From an uncultured Oligoflexia bacterium (GTDB lineage Bacteria; Bdellovibrionota; Bacteriovoracia; Bacteriovoracales; Bacteriovoracaceae): 55,481 bases of DNA. The stretch spans positions 1 to 55,481 of the forward strand of contig CAJXPQ010000017.1 of assembly GCA_913058265.1 (NCBI GenBank). Reading direction: 5' to 3'. A model generated the notes under the pieces. That model made no database searches. It was not told the origin of the DNA and was given only the letters and a program-made list of their open reading frames with translations. Below, in pieces: positions 1 to 55,481 of this stretch. Position 1 is the first letter of the stretch, and each line of letters opens with the position of its first letter. A program made the translations under genes and the position numbers.

Positions 1-141
1 ATATCGAACTTTTTTCCTCACGATTCAGCGCGCACACCATCAAATTTGGAGACCCGTAATAAGGAGCGTAGGCGAATTATGGATTATCGCTCCGGTCAGC
101 TAAAACCAGATTCCAAGATTAAAAAGGTGTTTAAATTATGA
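1..141 (+). CDS. C-terminal end of a gene cut by the contig start
   Basis: Frame 1 is open from the first base to a TGA at 139-141 and encodes 46 residues ending in VFKL. The tail is basic and hydrophilic (an RNKERRR stretch, then SKIKKVFKL). The stop overlaps the ATG of the next gene as ATGA, the usual sign of translational coupling, so this is very likely the real end of an upstream operon gene. No family can be named from so short a tail. Confidence 0.55.
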   Translation: MSNFFPHDSARTPSNLETRNKERRRIMDYRSGQLKPDSKIKKVFKL

Positions 142-52655: not shown

Positions 52656-53795
52656 ATGCTAAATGAAAACTATATAGAAATTAAAGATATGATGTGCAAA
52701 TTTGCGGATTCAGAGGTTGCGCCTCTAGCTCATGATATCGATCATAATAGTAAAATTCCTGACAGCCTTAAAGCGAAAATGGCGGAGAATGGATTTATGG
52801 GAATTTATATTCCGGAAGAATATGGCGGAGCCGGGATGGATTATATGTCTTACTCTCTTCTGATTGAAGAGGTTTCTAGGGCCTGTGCTTCAAGTGGTGT
52901 TTTTCTCTCGGCACATAATTCTTTAGCTGTTTGGCCTATATTAACCTACGGTACTGAAGATCAAAAAAAGAAGTACCTTCCAAAGATGGCAAGTGGTGAG
53001 TACGTTGGATGTTTCTGTCTGTCTGAGCCAAATGCTGGCAGCGATCCTGGAACTTTGGCTACCTTTGCGGAAGACAAAGGTGATCACTACGAACTAAGTG
53101 GAACTAAAAATTGGATAACTAACGGTGGCGAGGCAAGTATAGCAGTTGTGCTTGCAAGAACGACTAAGTCAGACAATCACAAAGGTATTACTGCATTTAT
53201 AGTTGAGACAAAGTCTGAGGGCTTTAAGGTTCAAAAACTTGAGGAGAAACTAGGTATTAAGGGTTCTTCAACAGCTCAAATTCATTTGGATAAAGTAAAG
53301 GTTCCTAAAGAAAATATTTTAGGAGAGTTTGAAAAAGGCTTTAAGGTTGCCTTATCTACATTAGATGGCGGACGAATTGGAATTGCTGCTCAGGCGCTTG
53401 GAATTGCTGAGGCCGCATTTAGATATGCCCGACAATATGCAACAGAGAGAGTGCAGTTTGGAAATCCCATCTCTCATCTACAAGCGATTCAATTTAAAAT
53501 AGCTGATATGAGTACTAAAATAGAGGCCTCTAGGTTATTAATTGAAAAAGCCTCAGAACTTAAGGATACCAAGAAGCCATATAGCAAGGAAGCGGCGCAA
53601 GCAAAACTCTTTGCCAGCGAAGCTGCAATGTGGATTACCACACAAGCGATTCAAACTTTAGGTGGGAATGGTTACTCTAAAGAGTATCCGGTTGAACGAC
53701 ACTTTAGAGATGCTAAAATTTGCGAAATTTATGAGGGAACCTCTGAAATTCAGCGGATTGTTATCGCAGCGAGTGAATTTAAGTCAATTAGCTAG
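52656..53795 (+). CDS. Short-chain acyl-CoA dehydrogenase
   Basis: 379 residues. CFCLSEPNAGSDPGTLATFA and the KNWITNGG strand line the FAD; GSSTAQIHLDKVKVPKENILG, ERVQFGNPISHLQAIQFKIADM and QTLGGNGYSKEYPVERHFRDAK are family hallmarks. The catalytic Glu is in YEGTSEIQRIVIA near 363. It dehydrogenates butyryl- or longer acyl-CoA, passing electrons to ETF. Same operon as the 3-hydroxyacyl-CoA dehydrogenase. No etfAB in the window. Confidence 0.94.
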   Translation: MLNENYIEIKDMMCKFADSEVAPLAHDIDHNSKIPDSLKAKMAENGFMGIYIPEEYGGAGMDYMSYSLLIEEVSRACASSGVFLSAHNSLAVWPILTYGTEDQKKKYLPKMASGEYVGCFCLSEPNAGSDPGTLATFAEDKGDHYELSGTKNWITNGGEASIAVVLARTTKSDNHKGITAFIVETKSEGFKVQKLEEKLGIKGSSTAQIHLDKVKVPKENILGEFEKGFKVALSTLDGGRIGIAAQALGIAEAAFRYARQYATERVQFGNPISHLQAIQFKIADMSTKIEASRLLIEKASELKDTKKPYSKEAAQAKLFASEAAMWITTQAIQTLGGNGYSKEYPVERHFRDAKICEIYEGTSEIQRIVIAASEFKSIS

Positions 53796-53864: not shown

Positions 53865-54914
53865 ATGGCGAAAGCGAAAAAGAAAGTGGCCAAAAAAATA
53901 GCTAAAAAAGCTGTTAAAACGACAAAAAAGACAGCTAAAAAAGCAGCTAAGAAGACAGCGAAGAAAGTTGTTGCTAAGAAAACTGCAAAGAAAGTTGCTA
54001 AGAAAAAAGTAGCAAAAAAAGTTGCTAAGAAAAAAGTAGCAAAAAAAGTTGCTAAGAAAACTGCAAAAAAAGTTGCTAAGAAAACTGCAAAAAAAGTTGC
54101 TAAGAAAAAAGTAGTAAAAAAAGTTGCTAAGAAAAAAGTAGCAAAGAAAGTTGCTAAGAAAAAAGTAGCAAAGAAAGTTGCTAAGAAGAAAGTAGCAAAA
54201 AAAGTTGCAAAGAAAAAAGTAGCAAAAAAAGTTGCTAAGAAAATCCCTTCAAAATCAAAATTAGATAAAGCAAAAGAAAAACTTGCAAACGCGGCCAAAA
54301 AAATGGCAGAAAAAGTGAGTAAGAAAGCTGCAAAAGCAGAGGCTAAGAAAGCTGAGCAAATTGAGAAAGCTGCAAAAAAAGCAGAGAAAAAAGCGGCTCA
54401 AGCTGAAGCTAAAGCTAAGGCGAAGCTTCCAAAGAAAGCAGCTATTGCCGAAATAGAAACAAAAATTAATGATGAAATCGTAGATCTTGCTGAAAACTTT
54501 GCATGGGATGAAATTGCAGATGCAATTTCTACTCTTGATTTCTTTGTTGATCATAGATCTGATGAGTGTGGTGAGAAAAACTGTGATAATTTAAGAACAA
54601 CTCAGCAATACTGTAGGCTTCATTATATCTCTAACTGGCAAGATATAAAAAGAAAAAGAGAGATTCTTAAGGAAGGTAAACTTCAAGAATATATTGAAGA
54701 ATTAATTAATAAGTACCCACCTAAATATATAGAATCTATTCTTGGAGATCTTCAAGACGATAAAGATTTTTTCAAAGCTCTTGGTGATTTAAATATTGCA
54801 AGTGAAATCGAGTTTGATGAAGACGGCGAAAGTACTGAGGAAGGTGACGATGACGATTCAGATATCGAAGTTGAAACTAGATCTTTTGCCTCTAAAAGAT
54901 TTGAAGACGAATAA
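53865..54914 (+). CDS. Histone H1-like lysine-repeat protein with Cys-containing C-terminal domain
   Basis: 349 residues in three parts. Residues 1-125 are Lys/Ala/Val repeats with unit KVAKKKVAK, like the DNA-compacting tail of histone H1, Hc1/Hc2 and AlgP. Residues 126-195 are an Ala/Lys/Glu coiled coil. Residues 200-349 form a folded acidic domain with three cysteines in about 16 residues (CGEKNC...YC, near 233-248), helices SNWQDIKRKREIL and LQEYIEELINKYPPKYIESIL, and a strongly acidic tail EEGDDDDSDIE. It should bind DNA or RNA in the nucleoid; the acidic tail could mask the basic arm. AGGAG precedes the ATG. Confidence 0.88.
   Translation: MAKAKKKVAKKIAKKAVKTTKKTAKKAAKKTAKKVVAKKTAKKVAKKKVAKKVAKKKVAKKVAKKTAKKVAKKTAKKVAKKKVVKKVAKKKVAKKVAKKKVAKKVAKKKVAKKVAKKKVAKKVAKKIPSKSKLDKAKEKLANAAKKMAEKVSKKAAKAEAKKAEQIEKAAKKAEKKAAQAEAKAKAKLPKKAAIAEIETKINDEIVDLAENFAWDEIADAISTLDFFVDHRSDECGEKNCDNLRTTQQYCRLHYISNWQDIKRKREILKEGKLQEYIEELINKYPPKYIESILGDLQDDKDFFKALGDLNIASEIEFDEDGESTEEGDDDDSDIEVETRSFASKRFEDE
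53980..54240 (+). repeat. In-frame 27-bp tandem repeats of the H1-like gene
   Basis: Units of 27 bases encoding KVAKKKVAK, with 24-base variants encoding KVAKKTAK, in about ten copies. Near-identical copies make the copy number unstable and hard to assemble from short reads. Confidence 0.85.
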
Positions 54915-54980: not shown

Positions 54981-55437
54981 CTAAACCATTCCTTCTTTAT
55001 CTAGAAACTGTTGAGCTTGGATTGTTAAAGAGATATTTTCTCTGGTGATTTTGTAAAAGAACTTACTGTCTTTGAATTTACTTTCTGTCCAGTTTGGAAC
55101 ATAGTCATGCCAACTCTCAGTTGCAAAAATATCATCTAAGACATGACTTGAGAGATCGATTAGATTTTTTAGTACGATTGTGAATTGTTTTGAATCTTCA
55201 ACGACATCATGTGAGATAAATAAGGATATAGGAGCAGCTGTTAGGTCATCATGGTTTAAGTAAGAGATTATGACGACAAATTCCTTGTCATAGATTTCAC
55301 CGTGAACATCAAAAAATGAGTTATCTTTTTCCGATTGATCAAAGTATGCCTCCGTTAAGGTTCTCGTAAATTCTTCAGTCCACTCAATAGGAAGGGGTTT
55401 TCTAGATACTTCCAGGTCAATACTTAGTCTGCCAAAG
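54981..55437 (-). CDS. Gene cut by the contig end, function unknown
   Basis: About 151 genuine residues from FGRLSIDLEVSRKPL to KEGMV. The apparent N-terminus MCIRDS comes from adapter sequence and must be removed. The protein is acidic with alternating strands and helices and no recognisable motif; the true start is missing. Length of the whole gene unknown. Confidence 0.6.
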
Positions 55438-55481
55438 CTGTCTCTTATACACATCTGACGCTGCCGACGACTCCTTACGTG
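55438..55481. other. Illumina Nextera adapter and index read-through (artefact)
   Basis: CTGTCTCTTATACACATCTG begins at 55438 and the 33 bases to 55470 are the reverse complement of the Nextera transposase read-1 adapter. The next 8 bases CTCCTTAC are the reverse complement of the i5 index GTAAGGAG (S505/N505), and GTG opens the P5 flow-cell part. Not genomic. Confidence 0.98.

Follow-up and report, generated by a model that had tools for sequence, protein, structure and literature searches.

Nextera adapter and index sequence left untrimmed at a contig end of a Bacteriovoracaceae genome gives a gene a false start

Introduction

The last 44 bases of a contig from an uncultured member of the Bacteriovoracaceae (CAJXPQ010000017.1) raise the question of whether they belong to the genome or to the sequencing library, and what this means for the gene that runs into them. 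A preliminary description had taken them for a Nextera adapter, index included, that gives a minus-strand gene the N-terminus MCIRDS. We analysed the whole contig (C17; 55,481 nucleotides, hereafter the window) together with the other contigs of the assembly, related genomes and sequence records. The features needed below are as follows.

53865–54914, plus strand: convergent neighbour gene for a Lys/Ala-repeat protein, synteny anchor (ORF list and relatives)
54981–55454, minus strand: ORF as called, 157 aa, ATG start, false N-terminus MCIRDS (ORF reading)
54981–55437, minus strand: genuine part of the gene, from codon 2 (last base only) to the stop (alignment with relatives)
55438–55456, plus strand: Nextera/Tn5 mosaic end, exact 19-mer, directed outward from the insert
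55457–55470, plus strand: i5-side (read 1) arm GACGCTGCCGACGA, common to five of the 14 adapter ends of the assembly
55471–55478, plus strand: i5 index CTCCTTAC, the reverse complement of GTAAGGAG (505 in the index list cited below)
55479–55481, plus strand: first three bases of the P5 arm, GTG, and end of the contig

Results

Adapter bases at the contig end

The bases at 55438–55456 (CTGTCTCTTATACACATCT) match the Nextera mosaic end with no mismatch and directly adjoin genomic DNA. The window has no other match at up to three mismatches, and none was found in 100 shuffles. The mosaic end is followed outward by the arm, a listed 8-base index and the beginning of P5, the same order and the same outward position at a contig end as in read-through of Nextera (Tn5 tagmentation) adapters in assemblies. 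We found no difference of substance from the usual read-through, except that the whole index pair is kept in this assembly, and the library can therefore be identified. The P5 side runs further at other i5 ends, where it reads GTGTAG or GTGTAGA. Illumina index 505 is GTAAGGAG in Table 5 of PMC4712552, and the S505-A primer in Appendix B of PMC7589761 carries the same index; two passages of PMC7547650 on index names give no index letters. Comparison with the Nextera adapter and the index list, as the preliminary description had suggested, thus returned a mosaic end with 0 mismatches, the arm and index 505, and its identification of an untrimmed adapter at 55438–55481 stands, index included.

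The same structure recurs across the assembly, which comprises 25 contigs and 3,230,557 bp. The mosaic end occurs 14 times (six forward and eight reverse; a reversed-pattern control gave 0), in every case at a contig end and facing outward, with 42–50 nt from the start of the mosaic end to the end of the contig. The end of the window, which had been described as a read-through end, is of this same kind. The i5 arm is found at five of these ends and the i7 arm at the other nine; the index is CTCCTTAC at 5/5 i5 ends and GCTACGCT at 9/9 i7 ends. The reverse complement of GCTACGCT is AGCGTAGC, index 709 in Table 5 of PMC4712552. A single index pair (505/709) is therefore present at all 14 ends, which indicates one dual-indexed library that was left untrimmed. 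At four of the 14 adapter ends, a gene fragment that can be recognised and has at least 60 aa receives a false start: the truncated gene of the window (157 aa), a thiolase (369 aa), the C-terminal part of purQ (93 aa) and the C-terminal part of flagellin (62 aa).

The 44 bases are an ordinary assembly artefact, not biology. They are almost certainly adapter read-through from a Nextera-type Illumina library with indexes 505 (i5) and 709 (i7) that was assembled untrimmed, located at the gap before contig C8.

Pairing of contig ends

We compared 48 contig ends, two further ends that read N being left out. Among the ends free of adapter, eight pairs overlap by exactly 55 nt and one more pair by 13 nt; a fixed overlap of 55 nt would be expected if the assembler had used a de Bruijn graph at k=55. 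When the adapters were removed from the adapter ends, 4/105 pairs overlapped, all by less than 55 nt: the end of C6 with the start of C14 (54 nt), the start of C23 with its own end (47 nt), the end of C14 with the end of C20 (41 nt) and the start of C11 with the start of C20 (20 nt). The letter-reversed control gave at most 6 nt. Two halves of purQ lie at the end of C8 (L004) and the start of C19; they cover PF13507 positions 194–260 and 3–128, and the genome has no further match to this family. Altogether, a partner was found for 12 of the 14 adapter ends, eight by overlaps of 20–54 nt, two by the purQ halves and two by the thiolase synteny described below; the starts of C1 and C18 have no partner. 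Both thiolase and purQ look broken only owing to the adapter-ended contigs.

We propose that read cover would run out between two divergent genes at the end of the window. The fragment that extends farthest into the gap would end at 55437, and its read would run on into the adapter, so that the assembler would put the adapter on the contig end. In general, fragments from both sides of a thinly covered place would overlap by less than k, and their untrimmed tails would become contig ends. Lack of cover as the cause of the break, a de Bruijn assembler with k=55, the exact gap length and the trimming history are points that we infer from the contigs.

The same artefact could have another cause, namely a single insert shorter than k (i5-insert-i7) that became the dominant tip of the graph. 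In three of the four pairs with an overlap, one end bears the i5 arm and the other the i7 arm, which is the combination that a single insert would give, but the starts of C11 and C20 carry i7 on both sides, which is not expected of one fragment in this chemistry. Moreover, the end of C17 and the start of C8 do not overlap, nor do the end of C8 and the start of C19, and therefore no single short insert explains those two. We consider this cause unlikely and retain the reading in which separate fragments from the two sides of a thinly covered place carry the adapters.

Two other features of the contigs were observed in the course of this comparison. Contigs C3, C10, C12 and C17 begin alike (window 1–45; starts of L026, L032 and L034) with a dispersed repeat, TCGAACTTTTTTCCTCACGATTCAGCGCGCACACCATCAAAT, which seems to break the assembly there. 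In contig C23 (L057, 13,510 bp), the two ends share 47 nt once the adapters are set aside, and the contig probably represents a circular molecule of about 13.4 kb, the alternative being a tandem copy. It encodes a Schlafen-group helicase-domain protein, an rve transposase, a C5 cytosine methylase, a SIR2-like protein with a 922-aa partner that has no Pfam match, and a 392-aa protein that also has no Pfam match. Judged by this gene content, C23 resembles a defence element that is small and mobile.

The gap between C17 and C8

The neighbourhood of the truncated gene is conserved in the six relatives whose loci were read (L059–L064). The Lys/Ala-repeat protein lies near the gene in 6/6, adjoining it in four and separated from it by one small ORF in L059 and L064. 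Across these relatives, the protein encoded at 53865–54914 (AKKVAKK) has a conserved C-terminal part and a variable repeat part. On the other side, the divergent neighbour is a thiolase in all six, opening MSIYILGGARTPQGSFLGSLS.VPAPKLG or close to it. The best match to this thiolase in the genome of the window is at C8:41-379 and begins at residue 22 of the query. The start of C8 consists of an i7-type adapter followed by GTACCTGCACCA..., which is read VPAPKLG, and the protein there matches Thiolase_N and Thiolase_C in Pfam. This thiolase (L003, contig start, 25–43) has a false start, MYKRQ, through the GTG of the mosaic end. The start of C8 shows this artefact at the opposite edge of the gap and differs from the end of C17 in that it has the i7 arm and that its frame is opened by the mosaic-end GTG.

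The gap comprises 5 nt of the truncated gene, the intergenic region and 66 nt of the thiolase gene (sums by hand). The intergenic region measures 102, 105, 122, 134 and 137 nt in five of the relatives and 480 nt in L064, from which the gap is estimated at about 173–208 nt by five of the six relatives and at about 551 nt by L064. Apart from the query itself, a DNA search with 138 bases of the C17 end returned 17 matches of 14–25 bases (18 in all); a 25-base pattern with two mismatches matched nothing except itself; and the end-to-end comparison with other contig ends gave no overlap. The end of C17 and the start of C8 having no overlap, their adjacency rests on synteny in the relatives. The best explanation of the gene order is that the two would adjoin in the genome across a short gap of approximately 0.2 kb.

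The preliminary description had held that the gene content beyond 55437 was lost. The contig does stop there, and the searches described above gave no overlap between it and other contig ends; however, the conserved divergent thiolase is present from about residue 23 at the start of C8 in the same assembly, with approximately 0.2 kb absent between the two contigs. The neighbours of the truncated gene are thus not lost, and we regard such a loss from the assembly as very improbable and do not uphold that claim.

We also considered that the chromosome has a Tn5-like transposon end of natural origin, or an engineered insertion of mini-Tn5, at this place. The 19-mer is the mosaic end of hyperactive Tn5, and it would show in an engineered insertion. 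Against this, the bases that come next are a sequencing arm, an index and P5, not transposon cargo, and the 14 copies all face outward at contig ends with both i5 and i7 arms. In addition, the mosaic end is absent from 19/19 orthologous loci (L059–L077) in the independent genomes of relatives. As the closest stand-in for the comparison with long-read genomes of this organism that the preliminary description had named, this absence, together with the presence of the mosaic end in only 5 of 289 other genomes sampled from the phylum, favours an artefact. Cargo inside the mosaic end, by which an insertion would be recognised, was looked for at the window end, and the arm, index and P5 were found instead. 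There is hardly any chance that a transposon accounts for these bases, and they are read here as adapter.

The false N-terminus and the genuine gene

The ORF at 54981–55454 on the minus strand opens MCIRDSFGRLSID... in translation, followed by FGRLSIDLEV.... The mosaic end on that strand reads ATG TGT ATA AGA GAC AG, and the ATG of the ORF lies inside it; the codon for the first S of MCIRDS is composed of AG from the adapter and C, the first genomic base. The MCIRDS start is false because the ATG and the prefix come from the adapter; the preliminary description had both the coordinates and the reading right. The mosaic end can supply starts in two frames, an ATG giving MCIRD(S/R) and a GTG giving MYKRQ; the third frame meets TAA.

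Relatives of the truncated gene were found in 20/38 other genomes searched, all within the family (20/24, and 0/14 in other families). The four nearest relatives have identities of 66, 60, 51 and 46% and start with MQFGRY (G002), MLLGRY (G012), MYFGRL (G001) and MNIGRY (G021). All four have exactly M and one residue before the shared sequence, and therefore no more than the start codon and two further nucleotides have given way to the adapter (5 nt missing). The alignment makes M-x-FGRLSID, with a codon for x that ends in C, the most likely true N-terminus, and the protein would be 153 aa long. That MCIRDS could be the real N-terminus, given a frame that is open and has an ATG, can be dismissed, as the adapter supplies all but one of the bases that encode it, each of the four nearest relatives shows M and one residue at that place, and the same peptide opens unrelated genes at other adapter ends, such as the flagellin and purQ fragments.

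The truncated gene encodes a family-restricted protein with no confident match in Pfam, NCBIfam or the PDB. The best Pfam hit, DUF7494 (E 0.022), falls short of its cut-off, NCBIfam gave no match for the window protein, and a PDB profile search with it returned no match. A search for a closer relative in the genome contig collection gave eight pattern-matching stretches, of which tblastn found 0 to be relatives.

Discussion

The value of these 44 bases lies in curation, and they carry no biological weight. The contig should be trimmed at 55437, the protein deposited without MCIRDS, and C17 placed beside C8. More broadly, adapter ends in this assembly probably mark fragment ends at short gaps or at overlaps shorter than k and allow contigs to be re-linked, index pairs probably identify sister libraries, and MCIRD and MYKRQ at the start of a protein would probably make a simple database-wide flag; with the prefixes MCIRD(S/R) and MYKRQ, further proteins polluted in this way can be picked out.

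The concern that false N-termini would spread in databases is borne out in general, by a phage protein rather than by the protein of the window organism. Three phage records in which a feature overlies the match were inspected for annotation, and one of them, LR597643.1, was translated; its deposited CDS VUF54202.1 has the mosaic-end ATG as start codon and reads MCIRDTRNLL.... Like that of the window ORF, its annotated start thus comes from within the adapter, and its deposition makes the worry over false starts in records a real one. It differs from the window ORF in coming from another organism and in its index, which is the reverse complement of CTCTCTAT; its mosaic end also lacks the outermost base beside the genome, which gives MCIRDT, unlike in the window. 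A literature search for 'MCIRDS' gave no match, the titles and abstract openings listed by further searches made no mention of the peptide, and no text contained at least three of MYKRQ, CLLYTS, CIRDS and three phrases together, a query that covers combinations and not single terms.

The 33-base arm pattern was found in at least 120 stretches of viral contigs and at least 120 of the genome contig collection. Among the matches listed, 125/127 viral and 140/146 genome mosaic ends lie within 100 nt of the locus end. ORFs of at least 60 aa, some of which arise by chance, are present among the same listed matches in the MCIRD frame in 22/127 viral and 51/146 genome cases and in the MYKRQ frame in 30/127 and 39/146 cases, respectively. 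Matching records number 60/50,697 for phages and 12/72,556 for plasmids. A search of complete E. coli genomes with the 44 bases in 'near' mode gave 0/20,395 records. One Klebsiella plasmid record has all 44 bases, once, in its interior, which could count against an artefact; it comes from a different organism, and the copy is readable as contamination, the same kit index having been left in another assembly.

Within the phylum, the mosaic end was detected in 6/290 genomes sampled, including that of the window (5/289 others). In G010, a genome of the same family and another genus (L326–L331), six of 11 mosaic-end places were read; index 505 is present at 3/3 i5 ends read and TAGGCATG at 3/3 i7 ends read. 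The reverse complement of TAGGCATG is index 706 in Table 5 of PMC4712552. G010 thus shares i5 505 with the genome of the window, with i7 706 in place of 709, which suggests a sister library; judging by the indexes, a single sequencing run may have produced both genomes. The indexes of G034 differ from those of the window's genome, and the three remaining genomes with a mosaic end (four places read) have no complete index. In contig C40 of G053, around position 53504 (L338), a mosaic end and i7 arm lie inside the contig and are followed by two N; this adapter seems to have been scaffolded into the contig interior.
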